DNA of 64,000 bases from Streptomyces sp. SJL17-4. GTDB lineage: Bacteria > Actinomycetota > Actinomycetes > Streptomycetales > Streptomycetaceae. Below, piece by piece: positions 1,997 to 26,735 of this stretch. The position numbers were made by a program, and so were the translations under genes. The stretch covers positions 1,674,001 to 1,738,000 of the forward strand of contig NZ_CP104578.1 in NCBI RefSeq assembly GCF_036826855.1, given 5' to 3'. The notes beneath the pieces were generated by a model. The model saw nothing but the letters and a program-made list of their open reading frames with translations. It had not been told where the DNA came from and ran no database searches. Each line of letters begins with the position of its first letter. Within the stretch, counting starts at the first letter, position 1.

Positions 1997-2077
1997 CCCC
2001 GACTCCCACTCCGAACCACAACTCCACCTGCGCACCGCACGGAGCCGGACCTCGGTCCGCCCATCCTGTTCGCGCGC

Positions 2078-2114
2078 GGCACGCCCGGGCACGGCCCACG
2101 GGCGTGCCGTGCCC
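2078..2114. other. Two overlapping inverted repeats between the PKS genes
   Basis: GGCACGCCCG (2078-2087) pairs with CGGGCGTGCC (2099-2108), and GGGCACGGC (2087-2095) pairs with GCCGTGCCC (2106-2114). The two stems share bases and exclude each other. They lie in the 167-base gap before the hybrid PKS-NRPS gene. They could be a partial terminator or simply a relic; there is no T-run. The base pairing is visible and the role is inference. Confidence 0.4.
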
Positions 2115-2163
2115 GGACCGCGCACACGCACAGCTTCACGACGCCTACGGGGGCTTCATCGTC

Positions 2164-11100: not shown

Positions 11101-14100
11101 GCACCCGCCGTGGCGCCCGACGCGGCCCGTGCCCTCGTGAACCGGACCGTCGCCCGGGCCCTCGGGACGACGTCGGCCCGGCTCGACGCCCGACAGTCCT
11201 TGCAGGCGCTCGGTCTGGACTCGCTGATCGCGATGAAGATCCGGACGACGCTGAGCAAGGAGTTCGACGTCCTGCTGCCGATGAAGGCGTTCCTCGACGG
11301 CCGCAGCACCGATGACATCGCCGACGACGTCCTCGCCCTCCTCGGCGCCGGCCCCGAGGGTCACGAGGGAGCGGAGACCGAGGCCCAGGTGGCCGACGGT
11401 GAAGCCGCCGCGACCGAGGACGACTCCGAGCGCTACGAGCCGTTCGGACTGACCGACCTCCAGCAGGCGTACCTCGTGGGCCGTGGTGACGCCTTCGAAC
11501 TCGGCAACACCTCCACGTACTTCCAGATCGAGATCGACCTGGAGAACGTGGACCTGGATCGGCTCGGCGCGTCCTTCCGGGCGATGATCGAGCGCCACGA
11601 CATGCTGCGGGCGGTCTTCACCGCCGACGGCGAGCAGCGCATCCAGCGCGACGTCCCGGCCTATGTGATCCGCGAGACCGACGCCTCCTCCCTGGACCCG
11701 GCCGAGCGCGAGGCCGAACTGGTCGCGGTGCACGAGGAGATGCGGCACCAGGTCTTCGACACCACGAGCTGGCCGCTGTTCGACGTGCGGGTGACCCGGA
11801 TCGACGACCGGGTGATCCGGCTGCACGCCGGCTTCGACGCCCTGATCATCGACGGTTTCAGCACGTCGATCCTGTTCAAGGAGTGGGCCGCGCACTACCG
11901 CGGTGAGACCCTTCCCGAACTGCGGCTGCGCTACCGGGACTACGTCAGGGAGGCCCGTGCCCTGGAGGCCGGGCCCGAGTACGACCGGGCGCTCGCCTAC
12001 TGGCGGGACCGGCTCGACACCCTGCCTCCCGCGCCCCAACTGCCGCTGGCGGTAAGCCCGTCGAGCCTTGAGCGGCCGGTGTTCAACCACCGTGGCGCGA
12101 CCCTGGGCCGGGAGGACTGGGACCGGTTCAAGCAGCACGCCTCGGCGGCCGGGGTCAGCCCCTCGGCGGCCCTGTGCACCGCGTACGCGCAGGTCATCGC
12201 GGAGTGGAGTGCCACTCCCGACTTCTCCCTGAACCTGCTCTACTTCAACCGGCTTCCGCTGCATCCGCAGGTCGGCGACGTCATCGGTCAGTTCTCCACG
12301 ACCCTGATGCTGGAGATCCGCGACTCGGCGGCCGACTCGTTCGCCGTCCGTGCCTCCGACGTCCAGAGCCGGCTGTGGAGCGACATGGAGCACAGCCAGG
12401 TGAGCGGTGTGCAGGTGCTCCGGGAACTGAACCGGGCTCGCGGCGGCTCGATGCGGGCGGCCGCGCCGGTCGTCTTCACCAGCCTGGTGAACATCGCCGG
12501 TCAGCAGGACGGCGAGCGCGGCGGAGTCGTCCAGCACCTCGCCGGGATCGGTGAGAACGGCCGCCAGGTGAGCAGCTCGGTCCGCACCCCCCAGGTGTGG
12601 CTGGACCACCAGGCGGTCGAGGAGGCCGGTGAGCTGCTCCTGAACTGGGACGTGATCGAGGAGCTGTTCCCGGCGGGCTGCATCGACGCGATGTTCGCCG
12701 CGTACCAGCGGACGCTGCGCGAGCTGTCCCGCGACGCGGCGGCCTGGCAGCGGCCCAGGCCCGCCCTCGCCCCCGTCGCCGACCTCGACGTACGGGCCGA
12801 GGCCAACGCCACCGACGGGCCGGTGCCCGACGGACTGCTGCACGACGCCGTGCTCGCCAGGGCGGCGGAGACCCCCGACGCGCCGGCGGTCATCACGGGG
12901 TCGCTGACCCTGACGTACGCGGATCTCGACCGAAGGTCGCACGAGGTGGGTCACCGGCTGCGCGCGCTGGGGGCCGGTCCCGGTGATCTGGTCGGCATCG
13001 TGATGGACAAGGGCTGGGAGCAGGTCGTCGCGGCCCTGGGCATCCTGCGGGCGGGGGCGGCGTACGTGCCGATCGACGCCCGGGTGCCCGCCGAGCGGCT
13101 GCATGTGCTGCTCGACAGCGCCGGGATCAGCCGGGTGGTCACCCAGCCGTGGGTGGACGACATCGCCGACTGGCCCCGGGGCGTGGACAGGATCGTGGTG
13201 CGGGCCGGTGAAGACGCCGACGCGGAGCACGACGGCGCGAGCCGGCAGGCGGGCGGCGAGCTCGAGCCGCTCGGGCCGTCCGGCGCCAAGCCCACCGACC
13301 TCGCCTATGTGATCTTCACGTCGGGCTCCACCGGGCTGCCCAAGGGCGTGATGATCGAGCACGGCGCGGCCCTGAACACGATCGTCGACGTCAACGAGCG
13401 CTACGGCGTCACCGCGGCGGACCGGGCCCTCGGACTGTCCGCGATGCACTTCGACCTGTCGGTCTACGACGTCTTCGGACTGCTGTCGGCGGGCGGCGCC
13501 CTCGTGCTGCCCGAGCCGTCCGCGCACCGCGAGCCCGCCCGCTGGGCGGAGCTCGTCACCGAGCACGGGGTGACGATCTGGAACAGCGTGCCCGCGCTGA
13601 TGGAGATGTTCACCGAGCACGCCCTCGCGAACCGGCTCACCGGACTGCCGCTGCGGCTGGTCATGATGAGCGGGGACTGGATTCCGGTGACCCTGCCGGG
13701 CCGGATCCGGCTGCTCCTCGAGGACGCCGAGCTGTGGAGCCTCGGCGGCGCCACCGAGGCGTCGATCTGGTCGATCCTGCACCCCATCGGGGAGGTCGGC
13801 GAGGACTGCGTGAGCATTCCCTACGGCAAGGCGATGCGTAACCAGCGCTTCCATGTGCTCGACGGCACGATGCGGCCCTGCCCCGTGTGGGTGCCCGGCG
13901 ACCTCTACATCGCCGGGGTCGGTCTGGCCCGCGGCTATCTGAACGACGAGGCCAAGACGAACGCCGCGTTCCTGCACCACCCGGTCACCGGTGAGCGGCT
14001 GTACCGCACCGGCGACCTGGGACGCTTCCTGCCGGACGGCACCATCGAGTTCCTCGGCCGCCAGGACTCCCAGGTCAAGATCCAGGGCTATCGCATCGAA

Positions 14101-15423
14101 CTGGGCGAGGTGGAGGCCGCTCTCACCCAGTGCGAGGGCGTACGGGCCGCCGCGGTCGTCGCGGCGGGCGAGCAGCACGGTCCCAAGCGGCTGATCGCGT
14201 ACGTCGTCCTCGACGACGGGCGCGACGACACCGAGCAGCGGATCACCGAGTCGCTGCGCAAGGTGGTCCCGCAGCACCTGGTGCCGCAGCGCATCCTCGT
14301 CCTGGACGAGCTGCCGCTCAGCGACAACGGCAAGGTCAACCGGGCGGCGCTGCCCGCCCCCGACGAGGTCGCCGTCGAAGGCGCCGGCTTCGTCGCCCCC
14401 CGCGACGAGGTGGAACGCCGACTCGCGGAGATCTGGGCGGAGTTCTTCGGTGTCGCCGAGATCGGGGTGACCGCGAGCTTCTTCGACCTCGGCGGGGACT
14501 CGCTGCTCGCGGTGCGGCTGATGGCCAGGATCGCCCGCGGTCTGGGCCGCAGCCTGCCGCTGTCCAGCCTCTTCGCCCGGCCGACCATCGAGCTGCTCGC
14601 CCAGGCGGTCCGGGAGACCGGCAGCGGCGAGGAAGGCCGCAGGGCACTCGTACCGGTACGCGCCACGGGCTGGCGGACTCCGCTGGTGTTCGTCCACCCG
14701 GTCGGCGGTGACGTGCTCTGCTACGCGGAACTCGCCGAACTCCTCGGCCACGACCAGCCGTTCTACGCGCTGCAGCTTCCGGACACGGAGCTGCTGAGCG
14801 TCGAGGACATGGCCGCCCACTACGTCGCGGCGGTCCGTGAGGCGCTGCCCGACGGCCCGTACCGGCTCGGCGGCTGGTCGATGGGCGGAGTGATCGCCCT
14901 GGAGATGGCGGCCCAACTCACCGCGGCGGGAGCCGAGGTGGAGCTGCTCGCCGTGGTCGACCTGATGGAACAGCCCGGACCGGCCGAGGGCGCGCCGGTC
15001 TCCGACGAGGTGCTGCTGTCCTGGTTCGCCCGGGATCTGGCGGGCCTTGCCGGGGTGGAGTGGGAGCTGCCGGCCGAGGCCTTCGACGGCCGTCCGCCGG
15101 TGCAGGTGCTGCACGCCGAGGCGCGTGCTGCGGGGGCGTTGTCCGAGGACATCGACCTCGACACGCTGAGCTCCATCGTCGGCCGGTTCCAGAGCAACTA
15201 CCGTGCCCTGCTGCGGTACGCGCCCAGCGGCTTCGCCGGCCGGGTGCTGTCGCTGCGGGCGGCGGACGGCGGTGCGACCGTCGAGACGGCGAACCGCTGG
15301 ATGGAGTACTTCTCCGGTGACGCCGCCCTCGTGGACGTGCCCGGCGACCACTACACGGTGATGCGCGGTGAGCGGCTGCGGGTCCTGGCGGACGAGCTGC
15401 GCCGGGCTCTCGACGCCCACTGA
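2164..15423 (+). CDS. Hybrid PKS-NRPS: KS-AT-DH-KR-ACP / KS-AT-DH*-ACP / Cy-A(Cys)-PCP-TE
   Basis: Terminal megasynthase of 4,419 residues. The ATG at 2164 follows CGGGGGC and begins a coiled docking helix ([16 protein letters not shown]), so it is preferred over the in-frame GTG at 2104. Module 1: KS from residue 36 (Cys208, His343, His383); AT from 570 (GHSQG Ser661, YASH 761-764, methylmalonyl type); DH with intact HxxxGxxxxP (His964, Asp1128); KR with LDD 1470-1472 and Tyr1527; ACP Ser1687. Module 2: KS (Cys1921); AT (Ser2390, YASH); a DH-like domain whose catalytic His position is Phe2696 although Asp2853 and Gln2857 remain; ACP Ser3020. NRPS: cyclization domain with DxxxxDxxS at 3225-3233; A domain (A3 SGSTG near 3720; FDLSVYD and GGATEASIW as in cysteine activators); PCP Ser4113; thioesterase with GWSMGG Ser4239 and His4396. 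Expected end product: an alpha-methyl enone, then an unreduced beta-keto unit, then a 2-substituted thiazoline carboxylate released by the TE. There is no oxidase domain in the A domain. Confidence 0.96.
3874..4900 (+). repeat. AT-domain repeat, copy 1 (near-identical to 9061-10087)
   Basis: The acyltransferase segment of module 1 is almost identical at the DNA level to that of module 2, at an offset of 5,187 bases. By eye, about 570 bases (3910-4478) match perfectly, followed by a short diverged patch and a second identical stretch from about 4528 to 4824. Flanking linkers differ clearly. This pattern fits recent gene conversion between the modules. Confidence 0.9.
9061..10087 (+). repeat. 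AT-domain repeat, copy 2
   Basis: Partner of the copy at 3874-4900, in the same orientation. The first differences at its right side are at about 9666 (aAgAC versus aGgAC) and in the next dozen codons. Identity then resumes until the end of the AT-to-DH linker at the [12 protein letters not shown] motif. Confidence 0.9.
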
Positions 15424-15430
15424 ACCGACC

Positions 15431-15461
15431 CGGCCGGGCCGCCCCTCCGGCGGCCCGGCCG
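15431..15461 (+). terminator. Hairpin after the hybrid PKS-NRPS gene
   Basis: A perfect 13-bp stem, CGGCCGGGCCGCC (15431-15443) with GGCGGCCCGGCCG (15449-15461), and a five-base loop, starting eight bases after the stop codon. There is no T-run, which is usual in Streptomyces. It may only reduce read-through, since the next gene is on the same strand and probably belongs to the cluster. Confidence 0.6.
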
Positions 15462-15525
15462 ATCCACCCCGGACCGGTCCCTTCGGGTTGCACGGGTCCA
15501 GGTCCAAGAAGTGAGGACAATCGGT

Positions 15526-16662
15526 ATGGGAATTGATCAGGCCGACCCGATACGGCGGCAGGCCGGTGAGCGAGCGAGCACGCTGCCGGCCACCGTGCCG
15601 GTCGCCGTCGTGGGAGCGGGCCAGTCCGGGCTCGCCGTCGGATATCACCTGCGGCAGGCCGGCGTGGAGTGTGTGCTGCTCGACGCGGACAGCGAGGTCG
15701 GCGAGACGTGGGCGCGGCGCTGGGACTCGCTGAAGCTGTTCACGTCCGCGCAGTTCTCCGGGCTGCCGGGTCTGCCCTTCCCCGGCGACGGCAGGCATTA
15801 CCCCGGCAAGGACGAGGTGGTGGCGTACCTGCGGGACTACGCCGAGCGGTTCGACCTGCAGGTGCTGCCGGACCACCGGGTGCTGTCGGTACGGCGGGAC
15901 GGTGACGGCTATCTGCTGAGCACCACGCGCGGCCACTGCCGGGCCGGGCAGGTCGTCATCGCGACCGGGGCGTTCGGCATCCCCCGCCTTCCGGAGTTCG
16001 CCGCCGCGCTCGGTCCGGACGTACCCACCCTGCACACCAGCGAGTACCGGAGCCCCGCGCAGGTGGCGCCGGGGACCGTGGTGGTCGTCGGCGACGGCAA
16101 CTCCGGCCGGCAGATCGCCGCCGAGCTGTCCACGACCCACGACGTGGTGCTCAGTTGCAGCGAGGCCGTCTCACCGCCCCTGCCGCAGACCGTCGTCGGC
16201 CGGGACATGTTCTGGTGGATGAGCGTCCTCGGGGTGATGCGTCTGCCGGTGAACATGCAGGCGCCCGACCCGGTCGTCGGTGACCGGGTGCCCGAGCTCG
16301 TCGCGGCGGGCGGGCTGCGGACCGTTGGCCGGATCACGGCGGCCGACGGAGCCGAGCTGCTGGTCGCGGGCGGCGAGCGCGTCAAGCCGTCCACGGTGAT
16401 CTGGGCGACCGGTTTCCGCACCGACTGGAGCTGGCTCGACCCGGAGATGCTGGACGACGACGGGCAGCCGCGGCACACCGAGGGCACGGGTGCGGTCCCC
16501 GGCAGCTACTACCTGGGGCTGTACCGGATGCGTACCCGCGGCTCGGCGCTGATCGGCTTCGTGGGCCGCGACGCCGAGCACGTCGCGACGGCGATCATCG
16601 CCACCGCCCACGGCAAGGACACCACGACCACTCCGCCCACGACAGAAGGCCGACCGTCATGA
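15526..16662 (+). CDS. Flavin-dependent monooxygenase (FAD/NAD(P)-binding, CzcO-like)
   Basis: 378 residues. The N-terminal FAD-binding Rossmann motif VAVVGAGQSGLAV and a second NADPH-binding motif VVVVGDGNSGRQIAAEL place it among class B-like flavin monooxygenases that oxygenate C, N or S atoms in the cytoplasm. ATWTG-type ending is represented by VIWATGFRTDW. The ATG at 15526 has GAGG nine bases upstream; an in-frame GTG at 15511 has a weaker site. It follows the hybrid PKS-NRPS by 100 bases and overlaps the next gene by four bases, so a tailoring role on the polyketide-thiazoline is likely. Candidate chemistry includes oxidation of the thiazoline or hydroxylation of the chain; the sequence does not decide this. 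Confidence 0.85.
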   Translation: MGIDQADPIRRQAGERASTLPATVPVAVVGAGQSGLAVGYHLRQAGVECVLLDADSEVGETWARRWDSLKLFTSAQFSGLPGLPFPGDGRHYPGKDEVVAYLRDYAERFDLQVLPDHRVLSVRRDGDGYLLSTTRGHCRAGQVVIATGAFGIPRLPEFAAALGPDVPTLHTSEYRSPAQVAPGTVVVVGDGNSGRQIAAELSTTHDVVLSCSEAVSPPLPQTVVGRDMFWWMSVLGVMRLPVNMQAPDPVVGDRVPELVAAGGLRTVGRITAADGAELLVAGGERVKPSTVIWATGFRTDWSWLDPEMLDDDGQPRHTEGTGAVPGSYYLGLYRMRTRGSALIGFVGRDAEHVATAIIATAHGKDTTTTPPTTEGRPS

Positions 16663-17156: not shown

Positions 17157-18818
17157 TCAGGACTCCGGCGGCGCCTGCGGGTCGAGGTCGCCCGGGACCC
17201 AGACGTCCAGCGCCCCTTCCGCGTACAGCGTCCGCACCGCCCGCTTGTCGTACTTGCCGACGCTGGTCTTGGGCACCGCGTCCACGAACGACCACCGCTC
17301 CGGCACCCACCAGCGTGCCACCCGCCCGGTCAGGAACTCCCGCAGCTCGTCCCCGCCGACCTCGGCGCCCGGCACCAACGACACGCAGGCCAGCGGGCGT
17401 TCCTCCCAGCGCGGGTCGGGCACACCGACCACGATCGCCTCGAGGACCGCCGGGTGCTCGATGATCGCGTTCTCCAGCTCGATGGTGGAGATCCACTCGC
17501 CACCGCTCTTGATGCCGTCCTTGAGGCGGTCGCTGACCACCACCCAGCCGCCCGGCTCGATCACGCCCAGGTCGCCGGTGCGCAGCCAGCCGTCGTGGAA
17601 CTTCTCCGAGGAGTCAGGGGAGTTGTAGTACGAGCCGGTGACCCACGGCCCGCGCAGCTCCAGTTCGCCCACCGAGGTTCCGTCCCAGGGCTGTTCGGTG
17701 CCGTCCTCGGCGATCAGCCGGACGTCGACGTAGGGCATCACCCGGCCGCTCTTGGCCAGCCAGCCGACCTCCTCCTCGTCGGGGGTGCCGTACGGGGGGA
17801 CCGCGAAGGTGGCGAGGGGGCTGGTCTCGGTGAGTCCCCAGCCCTGCGTCAGACGGACGCCGTATTGGTCCTTGAGCCGCTGCAGCAGGGCGCGCGGCGG
17901 GGTCGCGCCGCCGCAGCCGGCGAGCCGTACGCTGCTCAGGTCCAGCGGCTGCTGTTCGCCGTGGTGGACCAGGCTGTTCCAGATCGTGCAGATCGCGGCC
18001 ACCGCGGTGGGCCGCTCCTCGTTGATGATCCGGACCAGGTCCGGGGTGTGCAGCTGCCGGCCGTTCATGATCAGGTCGGAGCCCGCCAGCCAGGCGGAGT
18101 ACGGCCAGCCCCAGGCGTTGGCGTGGAACATCGGCACGATCGGCAGGACGCGGTCGCCGTCGTGCATGGCGAAGCCGGAGCCGCCCGAGACGCCGAGGGT
18201 GTGCAGGGAGATCGAGCGGTGGCTGTAGGCCACGCCCTTGGGGTCCCCGGTGGTGCCCGTGGTGTAGCAGAGCGCCGCCGCTTCCCGCTCGTCCAGGTCG
18301 GGCCAGACGTAGCCGGGTCGCTCGGCCGCGAGGAGGTCGTCCCAGCGGTGCACGGCGATGTGCCCGGGCAGGTCGACCTCGGGCGCGCCGCCGATGACGA
18401 CCACGTGCCGTACGCTGCCGAGCCGGTCCCGCAGGGGGACGAGCATGTCCTGGAGGGTCGAGTCGACCAGGAGGACGGCGTCCTCGGCGTGCTCGACGAT
18501 GTAGCCCAACTGGTCGGGGTGGAGACGGAGGTTGAGGGTGTGCAGTACGGCGCCCATGCTCGGTACGGCGAGATAGGCCACCAGGTGTTCGGGGGTGTTC
18601 CAGGCGAGGGTGGCGACGCGCTCGCCGAGCTGCACGCCCAGCCTGGCCAGTGCGGCGGCGAGTTGCTCGGCCTGGTCGGCGATCTCGGCGAAGGTCTGTA
18701 AGGACCGTTCGTTCTGCCCGTCGGCGCATCGGATCACCCGGCTGTCCGCGTAGACGCGCTGTCCGTGCGCGAGGAGGTCACGGACGAGCAGTTCGCGGTC
18801 CTGCATGGTGCTCTTCAT
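17157..18818 (-). CDS. Medium/long-chain acyl-CoA synthetase (adenylate-forming)
   Basis: 553 residues. Activates a carboxylic acid as acyl-AMP and transfers it to CoA. Seen: P-loop YTTGTTGDPKG, aromatic/Glu motif GWGLTETSP, hinge region WLRTGDLGV and catalytic Lys in KTSVGKYDKR. The start at 18818 is chosen because AAGGGG lies seven bases upstream; a longer frame reaching 18986 would run through a repeat and hairpin and has Pro/Thr-rich unlikely sequence. It converges on the PKS-NRPS operon across a terminator and is separated from the export operon upstream by another hairpin. It could supply a starter acyl-CoA for the cluster, or be an ordinary fatty-acid catabolic enzyme; substrate cannot be told from the sequence. 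Confidence 0.92.
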   Translation of the reverse strand: MKSTMQDRELLVRDLLAHGQRVYADSRVIRCADGQNERSLQTFAEIADQAEQLAAALARLGVQLGERVATLAWNTPEHLVAYLAVPSMGAVLHTLNLRLHPDQLGYIVEHAEDAVLLVDSTLQDMLVPLRDRLGSVRHVVVIGGAPEVDLPGHIAVHRWDDLLAAERPGYVWPDLDEREAAALCYTTGTTGDPKGVAYSHRSISLHTLGVSGGSGFAMHDGDRVLPIVPMFHANAWGWPYSAWLAGSDLIMNGRQLHTPDLVRIINEERPTAVAAICTIWNSLVHHGEQQPLDLSSVRLAGCGGATPPRALLQRLKDQYGVRLTQGWGLTETSPLATFAVPPYGTPDEEEVGWLAKSGRVMPYVDVRLIAEDGTEQPWDGTSVGELELRGPWVTGSYYNSPDSSEKFHDGWLRTGDLGVIEPGGWVVVSDRLKDGIKSGGEWISTIELENAIIEHPAVLEAIVVGVPDPRWEERPLACVSLVPGAEVGGDELREFLTGRVARWWVPERWSFVDAVPKTSVGKYDKRAVRTLYAEGALDVWVPGDLDPQAPPES

Positions 18819-19015: not shown

Positions 19016-19570
19016 TCAGCCCAGGTACTCGATGTCCCCCACCAGCGTGGCGCTGACGTGGTCGTGGTCGAGGAGGTTGACCCGGGCGTTCATCTTGCCG
19101 CTGCCCCGGACCATCGCGTAGTTGCCCGTGCCGGCGGTGAGCGTGAACGTGCCGGTCGGGTAGACCAGGGTGTTCGTCGTCACCGGCGCGGTGAGCGCGT
19201 AGCTGATGTTGAGCTTGTCACCGTCGGCCTCGGTGAGCGTCAGCGTCCCCTTGATGTCGTACTTGCCGGGGATGGTCGCGAGACACACGACCTCGGTCTG
19301 GGACCAGGTGGCGGTGCCGACCGGCTTGCCGGTGGCGGTCCCCGTCCCGACCACGTTGTAGCCGTTGCAGCCCACGGTGTCCGGATGCGTGGTCGCGACC
19401 ACGCCGAAGTTCGAGGTGATGTCGACGGTGGGCAGCCAGGTGTCGGCGACGATGCCCGCGCGGTCCGTCTCGGTGGCGTACGTGACACCGGCCGTACCGC
19501 CGGTTATCAGTACCGCCGCGGCCGCCACCCCAGCGGCGCGCGCGAGCCATCTGTTCGTGAATCTTGTCAT
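19016..19570 (-). CDS. Small secreted protein, possibly beta-barrel (allene-oxide-cyclase/dirigent-like)
   Basis: 184 residues. A clear Sec signal peptide (MTRFTNRWLARAAG, hydrophobic AAVLITGGTAGVTYA) is followed by a mature domain rich in beta-strand-forming residues, with two cysteines (CNGYN and VVCLAT) that could form a disulfide. The C-terminal pattern TGNYAMVRGSGKMNAR ... VSATLVGDIEYLG resembles the repeating strands of allene-oxide-cyclase or dirigent barrels, a weak similarity only. GGGGGAG precedes the ATG. It is the last gene downstream of the two exporter genes, 171 bases away, so it may belong to the same transcript; it could act on, or protect against, the exported peptide. Function unknown. 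Confidence 0.8.
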   Translation of the reverse strand: MTRFTNRWLARAAGVAAAAVLITGGTAGVTYATETDRAGIVADTWLPTVDITSNFGVVATTHPDTVGCNGYNVVGTGTATGKPVGTATWSQTEVVCLATIPGKYDIKGTLTLTEADGDKLNISYALTAPVTTNTLVYPTGTFTLTAGTGNYAMVRGSGKMNARVNLLDHDHVSATLVGDIEYLG

Positions 19571-19741
19571 CTTCTCCCCCGGAATGATGCAGAAATTGCC
19601 TAACTGCGCCTATATGAAGGCCTGTTGGGGACAGCTTCCCTGATCGAAAGCCCTTCCGTCGAGGCATTCCGGCTTTTCCGTCCGGGAGGCTCGGATTCCG
19701 AAATGTGCCCTCTCCATGTATCCCCGCGCGGCAGACACCGC

Positions 19742-22711
19742 TCAGCCGAGCTGACGGCGTACGAGTTCGTGGAACGCGCCGCTCGTGTCGGCGAGCAGTT
19801 CGGCGGGCGGTCCCTGCTGGGCCACCCGGCCGTCCGCCATGACGATCACCCGGTCGGCGTCCATGATCGTGGACAGCCGGTGGGCGATCACGACGCGCGT
19901 GGCGCGCAGGGTGCGGGTGGACTCGATGACGACACGCTGGGCCTCGTTGTCCAGGGCACTGGTGGCCTCGTCCAGGAAGAGGACCCGCGGCTTGCGGATG
20001 AGGGCCTGGGCGATCATCAGCCGCTGGCGCTGGCCACCGGAGACCGTGCCGCCGCCGTCGGACAGCATGGTGTGCATGCCCATGGGCATGGCCTTGATGT
20101 CCTCGGCCAGACCTGCCATGGCGGCTGCCTCCCAGGCCTCCTCCGGAGCGTACGGCTCCGCCCCGCGGATGCAGTCGAGGATCGACCCGGAGAACGGCTG
20201 CGCGTTCTGCAGGACGACGCCGCACTGCCGGCGCACGGCCGCCCGGTCGAGCGCCGCCAGATCCTGACCGTCGTACAGCACGCTGCCCGCGACCGGCCTG
20301 TCGAAGCCGATGAGCAGCCGGAGCAGGGTCGACTTGCCACAGCCGCTGGCCCCGACGATCGCGACGAACTCGCCGGGCCTTACCTCGACCGACACGTCGT
20401 CCAGGACGAGCGGACCGTCCTCGGTGTACCGGTAGGACAGGTTCTTCGCCTCGACCGCCCCGCTCAGCACCCCCGGCTGTGTGCTGGAACCGCGCACCTC
20501 GGGGGTCTCCCGGAAGACCGGCCCGATCTGTTCGAACATCGGCTGCACGGCGGCGGCCGAGATCAGCGCACCGGTCAGCTGGGTGACCGAGGACAGCAGG
20601 ATCGTCACGGCCGTACTGAAGGTGAGGAACTCTGCGGCGGACATGCTGCCCCGCGCCGGCCCCGCGAGCAGCATGAACATCACGAGCATGCACAGCGGCG
20701 GGCAGACCGCGTTGAGGACGGTGATGACGTTCTTGATCCGGCCGATCCGCTGCTGGAGCTCCCGCGTGCGGGCGAACTCCCGCGCCCAGGCGGCGTAGGC
20801 GAAGCTCTCGGCCGCGGCCACGCGCAGCTTGGGCAGCCCGCGCAGGGTCTGGAACGCCTGGTTGTTGAGCTTGTTGCCGAGGACGAGCAACCGCCGCTGG
20901 TAGCGCAGCTGCCACAGCCCGAGCCCCAGGAAGAGGGCGGCGATGACGAGCAGCATGGCGAGCGCCGCCAGGGCCAGCGGCACGCTGTAGAAGAGCAGCA
21001 GGACGAGGTTCATCGTGCCGACGGTGCTCGCCTGCAGACAGACCGACCCGATGCCGGAGAGCACGCTGCGGATGGCGCTGACGCCCATGGCCGCGCTCGC
21101 CAGCTCCCCGGTGGAGCTGCCGGTGAAGAACGTGACAGGCAGCCTCAACAGCCGGTCCCAGACGGCCGGTTGAAGTGTGGCCTCGATGCGGCCCTCCACC
21201 CGCAGGATCGCGATGTTCTGCAGCAGCATGAAGGCGGCCGAGACGACACTGGCCGCGATGAGCGCCAGCGCGGTCTGCACGATGAGGCTGTCCTCGGCGT
21301 GCGGTACGTACTCGCCGAGGACCTTGCCGGTCGCGATGGGCACGAGCGCGCCGAGGCCGACCGCGACCAGACCGCCCACGAGGAGGCTGCGCAGGTCCCC
21401 GCCGGTCCCCCGCAGGCTGAAACGGAGCAGCCGCAGCAGGCTCGGCCTCCCGTCGGGCAGTGGGCGGTAGAACATGACGGCACCGGGTTCGAAGAGGCCC
21501 TCGTCGGCGGCACCGACGCGCTCCCGGCTGCCGGTGGCGGGGTCGACGGCCTCGTATCCGCCGCGCCGCCACAGCAGGGCGACCGGGGCGCCGTCCTCCT
21601 CCCGCCGCCCCACCAGGGGCCCGCTGTTCTCGCGCCACCAGCGGCCGTGGAGGCTGACGACCCGGGTGCGGATCCGTGAGGCGAGCGCGATGCGCTCGAC
21701 GGGGTCGGCCCGGCCGGGGTCGCCGCCGGAGCCGACCGGCTCCGTCAGGGTGATGCCCGCCTCACGGGCGACCAGCCGGCACACGGCGAAGGCCGCGTCG
21801 TCGCTCCCGCCGCGCCCGGAGGCCCCGCGCGACCGGCCGCCGGAGCGGCCGATGGAGGCGAGCAGGGCCTGGTCGGCCTGGGTACGGGCGGCCTCGCCGG
21901 CCTCGATGCCGGCCGCCGTGCGGTCCTCATGGGCGCGCTCGACCTGCTCGATCCAGTTGTCCAGGGCGTACAGCAGGCGGTACTGCTGGTCGACCATGCC
22001 CTGCCACATCGCCCCGTCGACGAGGAGCGCTGCCGCGGTGTCGTACCCGTCGTACCCCTCGTACACGGCGCCGTACCGGACGCTGCCCGGGGTGATCTGC
22101 ATCCACAGGACGTCGTCGTCGGCCGCGCCCGGGCCGGCGGTGGCGCGGCTTTCGAGCGGCGCCTGGTAGAGGACGCGCAGGCCGCGCCCGATGCCGAGTG
22201 CGAAGGCGTTCTCCAGGGGGCTCAACGGCACCTCGGTGACGCCGTACTCCCCCGGTCCGTACGCCTCGGGCCCGAACCGGCCCTGTCCGTGCGGGCCGTG
22301 CCCGAACTGGCCATGGCCGTACTCCCCGTGCCCGTACTCCCCGTATCCGTACTCCCCGTGCGCGTACTCCCCCTGCCCGTACTCCCCTTGTCCGTACGGC
22401 TGCAGCTCGCGCAGTTCGATGCGGCGCAGCAGGCAGCCCTGGAGGGGGCGGCCGATCAGGGTGTGGCCGGGGCCCTCGGCCGGGCCGAGCAGCAGCGTGC
22501 CCGGCACGAGGCGGCCGAGGAAGTGCCAGTGGCCCTCCTGCGCGGCGTCGATCGCGAACAGGTCCAGCTCGCCCTCGACGACGAGCCACAGCACGAGCGG
22601 CCCCTCCAGGGACAGGCTGCGCATGCCCGCGCAGTCGAGGGGCGTGCCGAGTCCGCCCAGGGCGGCCACGACCGGGTCCACGGCGACGGGTGCGGGGTGG
22701 GGGGACGTCAC
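19742..22711 (-). CDS. NHLM-type peptide exporter, second ABC transporter (membrane-ATPase fusion)
   Basis: 989 residues, GTG start with AAGGAG seven bases upstream and one base after the stop of the partner exporter. Parts: an N-terminal cupin/cNMP-like regulatory domain (about 1-100), a Tyr-Gly-x-Gly-Glu repeat (106-156), a long linker, an exporter membrane domain (about 420-690) and an ATPase with Walker A GASGCGKST, signature VSGGQRQRL and Walker B VLFLDEATSALD. There is no C39 peptidase. This architecture matches the second ABC protein of nitrile-hydratase-leader-microcin (NHLM) export systems, in which two ABC proteins and an HlyD protein occur together. It probably pairs with the peptidase-bearing exporter as a heterodimer in the cytoplasmic membrane to export the upstream precursor. 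Confidence 0.9.
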   Translation of the reverse strand: MTSPHPAPVAVDPVVAALGGLGTPLDCAGMRSLSLEGPLVLWLVVEGELDLFAIDAAQEGHWHFLGRLVPGTLLLGPAEGPGHTLIGRPLQGCLLRRIELRELQPYGQGEYGQGEYAHGEYGYGEYGHGEYGHGQFGHGPHGQGRFGPEAYGPGEYGVTEVPLSPLENAFALGIGRGLRVLYQAPLESRATAGPGAADDDVLWMQITPGSVRYGAVYEGYDGYDTAAALLVDGAMWQGMVDQQYRLLYALDNWIEQVERAHEDRTAAGIEAGEAARTQADQALLASIGRSGGRSRGASGRGGSDDAAFAVCRLVAREAGITLTEPVGSGGDPGRADPVERIALASRIRTRVVSLHGRWWRENSGPLVGRREEDGAPVALLWRRGGYEAVDPATGSRERVGAADEGLFEPGAVMFYRPLPDGRPSLLRLLRFSLRGTGGDLRSLLVGGLVAVGLGALVPIATGKVLGEYVPHAEDSLIVQTALALIAASVVSAAFMLLQNIAILRVEGRIEATLQPAVWDRLLRLPVTFFTGSSTGELASAAMGVSAIRSVLSGIGSVCLQASTVGTMNLVLLLFYSVPLALAALAMLLVIAALFLGLGLWQLRYQRRLLVLGNKLNNQAFQTLRGLPKLRVAAAESFAYAAWAREFARTRELQQRIGRIKNVITVLNAVCPPLCMLVMFMLLAGPARGSMSAAEFLTFSTAVTILLSSVTQLTGALISAAAVQPMFEQIGPVFRETPEVRGSSTQPGVLSGAVEAKNLSYRYTEDGPLVLDDVSVEVRPGEFVAIVGASGCGKSTLLRLLIGFDRPVAGSVLYDGQDLAALDRAAVRRQCGVVLQNAQPFSGSILDCIRGAEPYAPEEAWEAAAMAGLAEDIKAMPMGMHTMLSDGGGTVSGGQRQRLMIAQALIRKPRVLFLDEATSALDNEAQRVVIESTRTLRATRVVIAHRLSTIMDADRVIVMADGRVAQQGPPAELLADTSGAFHELVRRQLG
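22244..22396 (-). repeat. In-frame 15-bp repeat encoding Tyr-Gly-x-Gly-Glu units
   Basis: Residues 106-156 of the second exporter consist of about ten degenerate pentapeptides of the form (Y/F)-G-x-G-(E/Q/P), with x mainly Q, H or Y. The DNA shows a 15-base period (CCGTACTCCCCGTGC type on the plus strand). It sits between the regulatory domain and the linker. Expansion by slippage is likely. Confidence 0.85.
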
Positions 22712-22712
22712 C

Positions 22713-25019
22713 TCAGTGCTCCTTGACCAGTTCGGCGTACGCGCCCCGTGCGGCGAGCAGGTGCTCGTGCCGCCCGCGCTCGACGACGGTGCCCCGCTCC
22801 AGGACGACGATCTCGTCGCTGTCGCGGACGGTGCTCAGCCGGTGGGCGATGACCACGCAGGCACAGCCCCGGCGCCGCAGGTTGTCGATGACGAGACGCT
22901 CGGTCGCCGCGTCCAGGGCGCTGGTCACCTCGTCCAGGACCATGACGCTGGGACGGCGCACCAACGCCCGTGCGATCTCCAGGCGTTGGCGCTGGCCGCC
23001 GGAGAAGTTGCGGCCGTCCTGCTCGACCCGGCTGTGGATGCCGCCGGGACGGCGCGCGATCACCTCGTACACGGCGGCGTCCTCGAGGGCGGCCACGACG
23101 GCCTCGTCGGGGATGGACGGGTCCCACAGGGCGACGTTGTCGCGGACGGTGCCCTCGAAGAGGAAGACGTCCTGGTCGACGAAGGAGACGGAGGCGGCGA
23201 GCGCGCCGCGCGGGATGTCCTCAAGCCTCATGCCGTCGATGCGGATGGTGCCTTCCCAGGGGGCGTAGAGCCCGGAGATCAGCCGCGAGACGGTGGACTT
23301 GCCGCTGCCGGAGCCACCGACGAGCGCGACCTGCTGCCCGGGGCCGACGGCGAGCGAGAAGTCCTTCAGGAGCGGGGCGTCCAGCGGGCTGTAGCCGAAG
23401 GTGATGCCGTCGAGCGCCACATGGCCCTTGAGGCGGCGGGTCGCGGCGGGCGGCTCGCGCCGGGAGTAGAGCGGGTCGACGGGGAAGTTCTCGACGTCCT
23501 TGAGCCGGGCGACGTCGGCGGCGAAGTCCTGGATGCGGCCGGCCACGCCGTTGAGGCGGGTGATCGGGGTGGTGAAGCTGGTGATGAGTGCCTGGAAGGC
23601 GACGAGCAGCCCGACCGAGAGATGCCCCTCCACCGCGCGCAGGCCGCCGATCATCAGGATCAGCGCGCTGTTGAGCGCGGCGAGCGTGGGGGCGACGATC
23701 GCCAGCCACATGCTGGGCACGCCGAGCCGCTGCTGCACGTCGAGGGTGACGGCGTGCTGGCCGGCCCAGCGCCGGAAGAAGCCGTTCTCGCCGCCGGTGG
23801 CCTTCATCGTCTCGATGAGCTGCAGGCCGCTGTACGAGGTGTTGGTCAGCCGGGCGCTCTCGGCACGGAGCTTCTGGGTGTCGGTGGCCCGCACATGGAT
23901 CACGATCCGCATGGCCACGACGTTGAGCAGCGCGATGCCGATGCCGACGACCGTCAGCTGGGGGTCGTACGTCCAGAGCAGTACCGCGTAGAGGATCACG
24001 ACCACGGCGTCCACGCCGGCGGCGGCGAGGTCCCGTGCCAGTGTCTCGGCGACGGCGTCGTTGGACTGCAGGCGCTGGACCAGGTCGGCCGGGTTGCGCT
24101 GGGAGAAGAAGGTGACGGGGAGCCGGAGCAGATGCCGCAGGAAGCGGGCGCTGCCGAGCGTGGAGGAGATGATGCGGCCGCGCAGCAGGTTGGACTGCTG
24201 GAGGAAGGTGAGCACCGCCGTGAGCAGCAGGGCCGCCGCCATCGACGCGAAGAGCACGCCGAGGAGTGAGGTCTGCTCGCCGATCAGGAACATGTCGATG
24301 TACGTACGGCTCAGCGCGGGTATCGCGGCGCCGACCACGACGAGGAGGAGGCTGGCGAGCACGGCGGCGAGCAGGGTGCCCGAGGTGCCGCGCAGGCGGG
24401 CGGGCATCGCGCCCATGACGCCGGGCCTGCGTCCGGTGCGGCGGAAGCCCTCGCCGGGCTCGAAGGTGAGCACGACGCCGGTGAAGCTGGTGTCGAACTC
24501 GTCCATGGGCACGAAGCGCCGGCCCTTGGCCGGGTCGTTGATGTGGACGCCGCGGCGGCCGAGGCGGCGCCCGATGCCCTCGTAGACGACGTAGTGGTTG
24601 AACTCCCAGAAGAGGATGGCCGGCGGCCCCACCGCGGCGAGCGCGGCCAGGTCCATCTGCATGCCCTTGGCCTTGAGGCCGTAACCGCGGGCCGCCTTGA
24701 GGAGGTTGCTGGCGCGGGACCCGTCGCGGGAGACGCCGCAGGCGATGCGGAGCTCTTCCAGGGCGACGAACCGGCCGTAGTGACCGAGGACCATGGCGAG
24801 CGCGGCGGCGCCGCACTCCACCGCCTCCATCTGCAGCACGGTGGGGGTGCGTACGGGGCGGGGTGTACGGCCCTTCGGGACGGGCCGGCGACGCCTGGGG
24901 CTTCGGGCGGCCGGCTCGGGGCGACGGCGCCGGGTGCCGCCCTGCGGCGCGGGTCGGTGACGCCGCTGCGCGGCGGGCGGGAGCTGCGGGGTCTGGGTCG
25001 TGTCGGGCGACGCGGTCAC
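22713..25019 (-). CDS. NHLM-type peptidase-containing ABC exporter (C39 peptidase-membrane-ATPase)
   Basis: 768 residues. Processes and exports double-glycine-leader peptides. An Arg/Pro-rich N-terminal tail of about 65 residues precedes the C39 peptidase, with catalytic Cys in MEAVECGAAAL, His in FNHYVVYEG and Asp in HINDPAKG. The membrane domain follows, then the ATPase: Walker A GGSGSGKST, signature FSGGQRQRL, Walker B VMVLDEVTSALD. I chose the GTG at 25019, the last in-frame start before the peptidase; it lacks a good ribosome-binding site but overlaps a stop (GTGA) that ends a 44-codon frame starting at the adaptor's own GTGA overlap, so coupled translation is plausible. It lies downstream of the adaptor and one base upstream of the second exporter. 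Confidence 0.9.
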   Translation of the reverse strand: MTASPDTTQTPQLPPAAQRRHRPAPQGGTRRRRPEPAARSPRRRRPVPKGRTPRPVRTPTVLQMEAVECGAAALAMVLGHYGRFVALEELRIACGVSRDGSRASNLLKAARGYGLKAKGMQMDLAALAAVGPPAILFWEFNHYVVYEGIGRRLGRRGVHINDPAKGRRFVPMDEFDTSFTGVVLTFEPGEGFRRTGRRPGVMGAMPARLRGTSGTLLAAVLASLLLVVVGAAIPALSRTYIDMFLIGEQTSLLGVLFASMAAALLLTAVLTFLQQSNLLRGRIISSTLGSARFLRHLLRLPVTFFSQRNPADLVQRLQSNDAVAETLARDLAAAGVDAVVVILYAVLLWTYDPQLTVVGIGIALLNVVAMRIVIHVRATDTQKLRAESARLTNTSYSGLQLIETMKATGGENGFFRRWAGQHAVTLDVQQRLGVPSMWLAIVAPTLAALNSALILMIGGLRAVEGHLSVGLLVAFQALITSFTTPITRLNGVAGRIQDFAADVARLKDVENFPVDPLYSRREPPAATRRLKGHVALDGITFGYSPLDAPLLKDFSLAVGPGQQVALVGGSGSGKSTVSRLISGLYAPWEGTIRIDGMRLEDIPRGALAASVSFVDQDVFLFEGTVRDNVALWDPSIPDEAVVAALEDAAVYEVIARRPGGIHSRVEQDGRNFSGGQRQRLEIARALVRRPSVMVLDEVTSALDAATERLVIDNLRRRGCACVVIAHRLSTVRDSDEIVVLERGTVVERGRHEHLLAARGAYAELVKEH

Positions 25020-25150
25020 GGGAGCGGCCAATCGGGCTGGGGGGTCGTGGCGGGCGACGCGGTCACGGAAGCGCTCCGTCGGGCCGGCGTGTCGGGCGAC
25101 GCGGTCACGGAAGCGGCCCGCCGGGCCGGCGTGTCGGGCGACGCGGTCAC
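25016..25150 (-). repeat. Tandem 42-bp repeat at the adaptor/exporter junction, each unit with a GTGA
   Basis: On the minus strand the motif GTGACCGCGTCGCCCG (one unit has a one-base variant soon after) begins at 25150, 25108, 25066 and 25019. The spacings are 42, 42 and 47 bases. The first GTGA is the stop of the HlyD gene and the last is the chosen start of the exporter. The 42-base units keep one frame, encoding VTASPDTPARR(A/S)AS; the 47-base unit shifts it. Confidence 0.85.
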
Positions 25151-25953
25151 GGGAGCAGCCAGTCGACGGGGCGCTGCGCGGTGAGGTGGACGGTTCCGGT
25201 GACGGGGGTCGTGGAGTCGACGGCGTACGGGGGGCCGTCGGCCGAGGACCACCGGTAGCCGGACGGGGTCGTGGCCGAGCGCTCCAGCTGGACGAGCACC
25301 GCGACGGGGTTGCCGTGCCGGGCGAACTGCTCGGCGAGCCTGCTGTCGCCGAGGAAGCCGCTGATCTGCGCCGGTGTCTGGGGGGCGCGGCCGACCGCCT
25401 TGACCCGCCCGCGGAGCACCCCGAACCGCTGCTGGGGTGCGGACGGGACACCCAGGTCGACCTGGGCGCCGACGGGGATCGTCGCGCCGCTGCCGCCGGG
25501 CACGTAGAGCATGGCCACCAGCGGGTCGTCCGGGTTCTTCACGCGTTCCACGGTCGCCACGTCGGCGCCGGTGGTGACGACGAGACCGGTCTTGGCGAGG
25601 AGGGTCGTCACCCGTCCTCCGTCGACCGCGCGAACGTCCCGGTCGCCCTGCGGCGTCCGGACCGTGAGCAGGGGTGCGCCCGGGGACACCGACTGCCCTT
25701 CCTCGGCATGGACGGCGGTGACCTGCCCCGCGTACGGGCTCTGGAGGAGGTAACTGCCTTCGGCCCGGGTGAGAATGCCGGGTGCGCTCAGCTTCGAGGA
25801 CACGGATCCGGTGAATGCCCAGAAGGTCGCGGCGGCCATCACGACGACGGTGACGGCGAGCACGAGCCGGCCCTGCGGACGCGCGAACCGTACCGGCAGG
25901 TCGAGTTCTTCGGGCGATTGCAGCTTGGAAAGCGCCTTCTGACGGAACTGCAC
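25147..25953 (-). CDS. HlyD-family membrane-fusion (adaptor) protein of the NHLM export system
   Basis: 268 residues. One N-terminal membrane segment (LVLAVTVVVMAAATFWAFTG) is followed by a lipoyl-like barrel half (GSYLLQSPYAGQVTAVHAEEGQSV) and beta-rich domain, the layout of HlyD-type secretion adaptors, anchored in the membrane and facing outside. The start is the GTG at 25953, giving MQFRQKALSKLQSPEELDLP, the usual beginning of NHLM adaptors; GAAGGA is seven bases upstream. An ATG at 25974 has no spaced ribosome-binding site. It is the second gene of the leftward operon, 130 bases after the precursor, and its stop overlaps the first GTGA of the tandem repeat. Confidence 0.88.
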   Translation of the reverse strand: MQFRQKALSKLQSPEELDLPVRFARPQGRLVLAVTVVVMAAATFWAFTGSVSSKLSAPGILTRAEGSYLLQSPYAGQVTAVHAEEGQSVSPGAPLLTVRTPQGDRDVRAVDGGRVTTLLAKTGLVVTTGADVATVERVKNPDDPLVAMLYVPGGSGATIPVGAQVDLGVPSAPQQRFGVLRGRVKAVGRAPQTPAQISGFLGDSRLAEQFARHGNPVAVLVQLERSATTPSGYRWSSADGPPYAVDSTTPVTGTVHLTAQRPVDWLLP

Positions 25954-26083
25954 GGGCTCATCCTTCGACTGCATTCTTTACGGGGCTGCCGAATTGACCG
26001 GCAGAAGCTCGCCCGCCATGGGCGGGAAGGGCAGCCGTGAACCCCGGAACGGGAATGCGTTCCGGGGTTCACGGATATACCGC

Positions 26084-26302
26084 TCAGAGACCGGCGACAC
26101 CGACGTTGACACCGGCGAGGCCCGTGACGACGCCCGGCAGGGTCTGCACGCCCTGGACGGTCTGCAGCGAGGTCACGGTGCCGAGGACGGTGCTGACGTC
26201 GCCGACCACGGCACCGGCGAGGCCACCGGAGATGGCGAGGCCGCCGGAGACGGCGTCCAGCTCGGCGTCGGCGATCTCACGGGTCTCGATGTCGTTACGC
26301 AT
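26084..26302 (-). CDS. Double-glycine-leader precursor peptide (candidate bacteriocin)
   Basis: 72 residues. Leader of about 21 residues, MRNDIETREIADAELDAVSGG, ends in the ELDAVSGG signature recognised by C39 peptidases; a second SGG lies five residues later (SGG-LAI-SGG-LAG). The core is about 50 residues of Gly, Val, Leu and Thr, with GxxxG-like spacing, no Cys, no Lys or Arg, and one Asp. ATG at 26302 is preceded by GAAGGG nine bases upstream. It is the first gene of the export operon, with the adaptor next. No lanthionine, cyclodehydratase or radical-SAM enzyme is nearby, so the core is probably unmodified and membrane-active. An uncharged hydrophobic peptide could also be a structural or signalling peptide. 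Family assignment by leader and context only. Confidence 0.8.
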   Translation of the reverse strand: MRNDIETREIADAELDAVSGGLAISGGLAGAVVGDVSTVLGTVTSLQTVQGVQTLPGVVTGLAGVNVGVAGL

Positions 26303-26735
26303 GTGTGCGCACCCTTCAATTCGTGTGAATGTTTTTACCCCGGCCGGAATCAAGCCGTTCCGACGGCGGCCGCGATGTGCAGATATAAGCACGCGAACGG
26401 GTTGCCCGGCCAACCGAGTTGACGTGCTGCGGCACACGAATTCATCACCGAATCGAGCGGCGTTTCGATCCATTTGACAGATCGCCAGGAGATCGTCACA
26501 GGTTCTCCGCAGGATCGAGTAACAGAAATCGACCCTCCGCCGCGCCGACGGAACGCAAGGGGACATAGACCCCTCAAACGACGGGAGCGCGGCCGTCGCG
26601 TCGAGGAGTGACGCAAGGGGAAGGGCTCCCTCCTCTTGCACGATGTGAAGATTCGCCGGAGCGACGCTCGGTGAGGAGGTCGACACACCGGGTGCCGACC
26701 GAGCTCCGAGCGCCGTGCCGGCGAAGGGACCCCGG
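26303..26735 (-). promoter_or_regulatory. 433-base gap: probable promoter of the peptide-export operon
   Basis: No gene is supported here. The stretch is less GC-rich than its neighbours. On the minus strand a TTATAT (26388-26383) lies 81 bases upstream of the precursor start and could be a -10 element; no good -35 was found at normal spacing. An inverted repeat GGTTG-N6-CAACC (26400-26415) lies just upstream of it and could be an operator. The MFS stop is only 433 bases away and no terminator hairpin was recognised. Confidence 0.35.

Follow-up and report, generated by a model that had tools for sequence, protein, structure and literature searches.

A widespread Streptomyces operon pairing a Cys-free double-glycine peptide with NHLM-type exporters and no modifying enzyme beside it

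The closest described counterpart of the operon analyzed here is SCO0753-SCO0756 of S. coelicolor. In the available text of PMC6629963 (2019), SCO0753 is a 77-aa, very hydrophobic and Cys-free protein whose gene is followed by those of an HlyD homologue and two ABC proteins, and this gene order is conserved in many Streptomyces. According to the same text, no gene was more overexpressed than SCO0753 in a strain that had an activated Sco5282 kinase and showed dispersed growth. Compared with the null mutant, in which SCO0753-SCO0756 were almost silent, the activated-kinase strain gave log2 fold changes of 6.3 for SCO0753 and 4.25-4.4 for the exporter genes. The authors suggested that these proteins export the peptide, which might affect the hyphal surface. 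In the accessible parts of other reports, SCO0753 was up in an aor1 mutant (PMC5733086), sco0756 was up in a mutant without Ppm1 activity (PMC5882110), and SCO0756 was placed under bacteriocin biosynthesis (PMC6414726). The second related group comprises the NHLM export systems recognized by TIGR03794, TIGR03796 and TIGR03797 (Haft 2010, PMC2887384).

We analyzed a stretch of 64,000 nucleotides from Streptomyces sp. SJL17-4 (the window). Five genes on its minus strand, with the parts of the peptide gene and two further elements, are located as follows.

26382 to 26413, minus strand: promoter-like element TTGG-N17-GTGCTTATATC with an extended -10-like core, from pattern counts across loci
26084 to 26302, minus strand: precursor peptide gene, 72 aa, from the ORF and a homologue search
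26240 to 26302, minus strand: double-glycine leader, 21 aa, part of the precursor peptide gene
26087 to 26239, minus strand: Cys-free core, 51 aa, part of the precursor peptide gene
26035 to 26075, minus strand: hairpin with a perfect 17-bp arm directly behind the peptide stop codon, from folding z-scores and stem covariation
25147 to 25974, minus strand: short HlyD-type adaptor (TIGR03794 just below cut-off, PF13437 above; 100/100 loci)
22713 to about 25019, minus strand: exporter 1, C39 peptidase, permease and ATPase, from TIGR03796 and motifs
19742 to 22711, minus strand: exporter 2, permease and ATPase, from TIGR03797 and the Walker-B motif LF[FL]DEATSALD in 100/100 loci
19016 to 19570, minus strand: small secreted protein of no family, judged to lie outside the conserved system

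The peptide, the HlyD adaptor, the C39 exporter and the second exporter are transcribed in this order (19742-26302, minus strand), and the ORF positions confirmed the single direction that an earlier note on this sequence had described. That note had also counted the secreted protein as a member of the operon, which we reject, as the protein was present in only 3 of the 100 loci described below and had homologues in 2 of 61 genomes. No family matched it in NCBIfam or Pfam. A second copy, 64% identical, was observed elsewhere in the same genome (G000:C1:3144734-3145231, minus strand).

Judged by gene order, length and description rather than by peptide sequence, SCO0753-SCO0756 is almost certainly the same operon type. 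The gene order and the hydrophobic, Cys-free peptide agree, and the exopolyphosphatase gene SCO0757, which comes next in S. coelicolor in the available text of PMC6629963, has its like downstream of the operon in 15/100 loci. Some B-type peptides, when an upstream Met is taken as their start (L014), have the 77 aa of SCO0753, while the window peptide belongs to type A (both types are defined below). The operon type is therefore already known, and the suggestion of the earlier note that it had not been described in detail does not hold, since the accessible text of PMC6629963 already discusses it. A literature search with subscription papers and preprints outside its range returned nothing on the operon under other names beyond the SCO075x papers, and within that range we found neither a count across the genus nor any mention of the enzyme-free descent, of the promoter element or of the hairpin.

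To describe the operon across species, 100 loci were tabulated: 80 from genus-sample genomes, hand-picked from the match list and mostly on long contigs rather than random, 19 of the 20 loci from named relatives, and the window. L021 was left out because exporter 2 was not found there. The hlyD, exporter 1 and exporter 2 genes were present in the same order in 100/100 loci, and each locus carried one double-glycine peptide directly upstream of hlyD; in six loci a second pattern match lay farther upstream and was not of the peptide family. Fifteen extra loci from the class-wide sample described below gave the same picture, with the peptide in 13/13 complete loci (L197 repeating L004), never with Cys, and two loci cut by contig ends. 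The window peptide had 97 homologues at E <= 0.01, and a B-type relative had 589 at E <= 0.001, 120 of them listed. The named homologues of the window peptide were all from Streptomyces apart from two from Kitasatospora. The lack of conserved homologues beside such exporters, named in advance as the outcome that would count against the interpretation of the earlier note, was not what we found.

The frequency of the operon was estimated from exporter 2. Among 295 sampled genus genomes, exporter 2 scored over the cut-off in 217 and matched at E <= 1e-150 in 221. Of these 221 genomes, 219 had a single match and two had two. Because some of the genus genomes over the cut-off were TOMM-linked (L176, L177 and L179, with exporter-2 E values of about 1e-242 to 1e-245), we counted neither 217 nor 221 but the 212 genomes (about 72%) with E below 1e-253, a border that is our own reading of the score table. 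The border is supported by the 80 opened genus loci, all of the window type, and by L180 (1.2e-254), L183 (5.8e-256; exporter 2 71% identical, locus cut where its contig ends) and L186 (3.4e-261), which are also of this type. In a class-wide sample, 35/394 genomes were over the exporter-2 cut-off, 33 of them in the genus of the window. Streptomyces is the best-studied antibiotic genus, and about three quarters of its sampled species retain a peptide together with a dedicated exporter.

The window peptide consists of MRNDIETREIADAELDAVSGG followed by a 51-aa core that lacks Cys and K/R/H, contains a single Asp and has a mean hydropathy of +1.18. Leaders of 20-24 residues and cores of 42-59 residues were found in the 100 loci, and Cys was present in 0/100 cores, which bears out the short leader and the Cys-free, nearly uncharged core reported in the earlier note. 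Among 91 unique cores, 75 had no K/R/H and 77 ended in AGL. A crude rule divided the leaders into type A (16 loci, MR..., including the MRND... of the window), type B (83 loci, MNSTPQ...) and one of neither type. Identical peptide genes occurred in three pairs, and 49 unique 71-aa precursors had a mean pairwise identity of 0.77. The dN/dS was 0.31 for the leader (clearly purifying) and 0.67 for the faster-changing core (weaker purifying selection), both ratios being probably too high because dS is low, as expected in GC-rich DNA.

No family in NCBIfam or Pfam matched the window peptide above its cut-off, and comparison with TIGR03793 and TIGR03798 (NHLP and Nif11 leaders) gave no match at E <= 1; an NHLP leader was accordingly rejected. 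Many of the listed homologues are labeled 'type A2 lantipeptide' in NCBI/UniRef. This name is contradicted by the cores, none of which (0/100) has a Cys for thioether rings, and we rejected the lantipeptide reading. The broad retention of a peptide and exporter, with the peptide filed under a class to which it cannot belong, leaves an easily testable gap. Two loci, L121 and L196, carry peptides with the leader MRHQIETAELADAELDA... and clearly different cores ending in QS, not GL. In L021 (9983-10207, S. coacervatus), a B-leader peptide with a different core was observed, and no exporter gene was found in the fetched stretch; an exporter encoded elsewhere may have this peptide as a second substrate.

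Hydropathy along the B cores varied with a nearly helical period (100-110 degrees, p ~0.01 by column permutation, uncorrected for 25 angles). The A cores gave p 0.003 at 95 and 105-115 degrees but p 0.83 at exactly 100; additional peaks lay at 140-145 and 175 degrees. GxxxG spacings exceeded those of shuffled cores (2.9 vs 1.1 per core in B, 3.4 vs 2.0 in A), counts that are not independent because the sequences are related. AlphaFold2 placed a helix at residues 29-53 of the precursor with poor confidence (pLDDT 55.7).

The earlier note had assigned the exporters to the NHLM type, and this stood for both ABC proteins: exporter 1 scored 1009 bits against TIGR03796 (cut-off 853) and exporter 2 scored 878 bits against TIGR03797 (cut-off 709). 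The adaptor reached 153 bits against TIGR03794, just below the cut-off of 156.2, and was above the cut-off for PF13437. The real start of the adaptor is probably the GTG at 25953. HlyD proteins have a middle part that forms a long hairpin reaching an outer-membrane partner, and Streptomyces has no such partner. In the short adaptor of the window the middle of the TIGR03794 profile appears to be missing, and the missing part would correspond to that hairpin.

Exporter 1 carried QMExxECG and [NR]H[YF]VV in 100/100 sequences and the ATPase patterns in 96-99/100; its reading frame was broken in L107. In exporter 2, [VM][ED]CG and [NR]H[YF]VV were found in 0/100 sequences and the Walker-B Glu was kept. 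A Gly-Gly leader therefore adjoins an exporter with intact C39 Cys and His motifs, the arrangement of a double-glycine/C39 system as judged from the genes, with predicted cleavage. The presumed start of exporter 1 is the GTG at 25019. A 42-base unit repeated 3.7 times in tandem (24999-25160) lies between hlyD and exporter 1 and overlaps this start.

Exporter 2 has about 300 extra N-terminal residues, of which the first 100 or so may, on a tentative structural model, adopt a CRP/FNR-like sensor fold. The best 50 of 1277 Foldseek rows were described as CRP/FNR, CooA or cAMP-binding, none at E <= 0.001; Pfam detected no CRP/FNR-type domain there, and a 20-row profile matched no PDB chain. A weak model hinted, by its position and strand order, at a degenerate C39 domain in exporter 2, which a profile comparison did not support (probability 0.3%). 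The N-terminal part also holds 15-base tandem repeats (22251-22397) encoding a Tyr-Gly-Glu/His-rich stretch whose length differs among close relatives.

Modifying enzymes were searched for by TBLASTN with YcaO queries from L163, L176 and the window's own genome, SagB queries from L163 and L176, and two LanC-like queries from the own genome. The three YcaO and two SagB queries matched 0/100 loci, so the YcaO cyclodehydratase that marks a TOMM cluster was found in none of them. No LanC match was obtained in the 100 loci, as the three matches to a LanC query all fell within residues 165-432, the kinase domain of one query; of the two marks of a lanthipeptide cluster, core Cys and a lanthionine synthetase, neither was found. 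The L163 and L176 queries can detect such enzymes, because they found YcaO in 11/20 and SagB in 8/20 loci of a comparison set (in which L178, which is cut, and L180 are of the window type). The claim of the earlier note that no modifying enzyme is nearby was thus extended to all 100 loci for these three enzyme classes. While both exporters are above the NHLM cut-offs and the adaptor is just below, the operon differs from the NHLM systems, as presented in the available text of PMC2887384, in lacking an NHLP or Nif11 leader, in its leader of 20-24 residues, and in the lack of any adjacent YcaO, SagB or LanC match across the 100 loci.

The next closest exporter sets were found in seven Actinomycetes loci, with exporter 1 about 48-53% identical. 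These TOMM-linked loci all carry SagB-type genes and six also carry YcaO (L163, L164, L166, L176, L177 and L179; L175 has only SagB in the fetched stretch), whereas neither was found beside the window operon type. The enzyme genes lie directly upstream of hlyD, and those of L163 and L176 were confirmed as TIGR03604 and TIGR03605. Several more distant loci also have YcaO, and neither YcaO nor SagB was found in L165, L171-L174 and L182. NHLP leaders occur among the more distant loci (scoring above the cut-off of TIGR03793 for two L165 peptides and below it for L170 and L166), as does a Nif11-like leader below the cut-off in L169.

An exporter-1 tree of 47 rows (29 chosen from the 100 loci, L180 and 17 others) grouped 30/30 short-leader rows in one clade with 100/100 support. 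The seven enzyme-linked rows adjoined this clade in two groups, in a midpoint-rooted tree whose root is uncertain owing to long outgroup branches. The enzyme-free loci, together with nearest relatives that sit beside YcaO and SagB, identify the operon as an enzyme-free, short-leader branch of the NHLM/TOMM exporters. Subject to the uncertain root, the tree reads as a loss, on the short-leader branch, of the modifying enzymes of TOMM-type ancestors. An export system switched from enzyme-modified RiPPs to a plain short-leader peptide would offer a clean case for studying leader choice by C39 exporters.

Two features of the transcription unit recurred across the loci. In the promoter-like element of the window, the first base of the extended -10-like core lies 89 bp ahead of the start codon of the peptide gene. 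The core pattern, TG[CA]TT-N1-2-ATC, was found within 400 bp upstream in 94/100 loci (at 77-161 bp from the start codon; six loci lacked it) vs 1/1882 control windows, and the full form in 69/100 vs 0/1882, the pattern having been derived from the same upstream regions in which it was counted. A scan of the own genome found the exact element only at the window site, with one further site at one mismatch and one match to a reversed control pattern; a regulon defined by this element was therefore rejected.

Behind the peptide stop codon, the hairpin had z = -7.2 in the window and z below -2 in 93/100 loci (mononucleotide shuffles), and perfect arms of at least 9 occurred in 82/100 loci vs a shuffled mean of 5. 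A CCCGG...CCGGG stem with compensatory outer pairs was present in 99/100 loci: the first four outer positions paired in 95, 95, 84 and 86 of the 99, with several pair types, whereas the same stem slid by one base paired in 2, 84, 21 and 50. This hairpin could leave the peptide mRNA in excess of the exporter mRNA. The log2 values of 6.3 and 4.25-4.4 in S. coelicolor fit such an excess without proving it.

From these sequence data we propose, with about even confidence, that the operon makes and exports an unmodified amphipathic peptide that acts at the hyphal surface or envelope. Exporter 1 would cut the precursor after Gly-Gly during ATP-driven export, the hairpin would let peptide mRNA outnumber exporter mRNA, and the freed core of about 50 residues would probably be helical with GxxxG faces. 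The core would serve the producer at its own hyphal surface or envelope, as part of an envelope or secretion response, and would not be a weapon; the exporter set would derive from sets serving enzyme-modified (TOMM) peptides whose enzymes were lost. The pairing of peptide and exporters in every locus, the lack of YcaO, SagB and LanC matches beside them, the intact C39 motifs and the genus-wide retention of the core argue for this proposal. The poor AlphaFold2 model and the peaks of the A cores away from 100 degrees weaken the case for a helix. Double-glycine export, which is typical of bacteriocins, counts against it, as does the higher dN/dS of the core than of the leader, a pattern also expected of a competition peptide. 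The induction in S. coelicolor does not make the peptide the cause of the dispersed growth.

SapB/AmfS, a surfactant lanthipeptide of Streptomyces, depends on a lanthionine synthetase for its production and on Cys. The peptide described here resembles it in being small, hydrophobic and proposed for the hyphal surface, and differs in having no Cys and no lanthionine synthetase beside it; a comparison with SapB is drawn in the available text of PMC6629963. A more specific form of the surface proposal, which we regard as tentative and somewhat unlikely, is that the peptide is a genus-wide, non-lanthionine counterpart to SapB: envelope or secretion stress would prompt its production in bulk, and an enzyme-stripped TOMM exporter would release it as a structural or surfactant coat that alters hyphal adhesion. 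A role at the hyphal surface, if true, would bear on pellet formation in fermentation.

The evidence on the core can also be read as that of a bacteriocin, an unmodified pore-forming or membrane-permeabilizing peptide directed against related actinomycetes, an explanation that we consider unlikely. The double-glycine leader with a C39 exporter, the hydrophobic core with GxxxG spacing above shuffles, its faster evolution than the leader, and the bacteriocin heading given to SCO0753 or SCO0756 in the accessible parts of PMC5733086 and PMC6414726 would agree with it. However, the core is kept across the genus rather than hypervariable and is almost without positive charge, and the frequency of the operon means that most neighbors would carry the same system. 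No immunity-like gene was seen in the 30 largest neighbor clusters; this argument is weak because the crude gene caller skips genes of <60 aa and called hlyD in 57/100 loci (and the peptide in about 64).

An enzyme encoded elsewhere could modify the peptide in trans: the own genome holds one YcaO match and two LanC-like genes, of which one is RamC-like, at sites distant from the operon. The enzyme could be a YcaO, a class III lanthionine synthetase acting as dehydratase only, or another type. The YcaO and SagB genes beside close exporter relatives and the 6-13 Ser/Thr per core, several of them nearly invariant, point the same way. Nevertheless, 31 of 79 opened genomes had no YcaO match anywhere at E <= 1e-15. 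YcaO was present in 199/291 genus genomes, and its association with exporter 2 in these was, if anything, negative (odds ratio 0.37, p 0.0024, uncorrected for kinship). The core offers no Cys for lanthionine or thiazole, and the cross-genome search covered YcaO. Taken together, these results make modification in trans improbable. A secreted signal sensed by the producer's own histidine kinase is still less probable, in spite of the genus-wide conservation and the peptide-exporter pairing, as a 50-residue hydrophobic core is, to our knowledge, long for a peptide pheromone and no kinase was seen in the 30 largest neighbor clusters of the crude caller. The tie of the S. coelicolor operon to a two-component system would favor a signal, but in the available text of PMC6629963 the operon lies on the output side of the kinase, and the extracellular loop of this kinase is given as four residues.

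Besides the proposed surface-peptide operon, the window contains a PKS-NRPS hybrid region (35-16662, plus strand), for which no link to the operon was found. The last part of a PKS module (35-1996) is followed there by a protein of 4439 aa (2104-15423, plus strand), which carries condensation, AMP-binding, carrier and thioesterase domains as well as two KS and two AT domains, and then by an FAD-dependent oxidoreductase (15511-16662, plus strand); an AMP-binding enzyme lies beside the region (17157-18728, minus strand). Around the 100 operons, the neighbor clusters, of which the 30 largest were named by eye from the first 90 residues of one member each, included GAF/phosphatase-like proteins (56 loci), secreted proteases (54), MFS transporters (28) and exopolyphosphatases (15). 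The protease cluster, serine-protease-like, is encoded on the opposite strand, upstream of hlyD at a median distance of 2.7 kb. In the available text of PMC6629963, the genes induced together with SCO0753 include that of a secreted serine protease, SCO1741.
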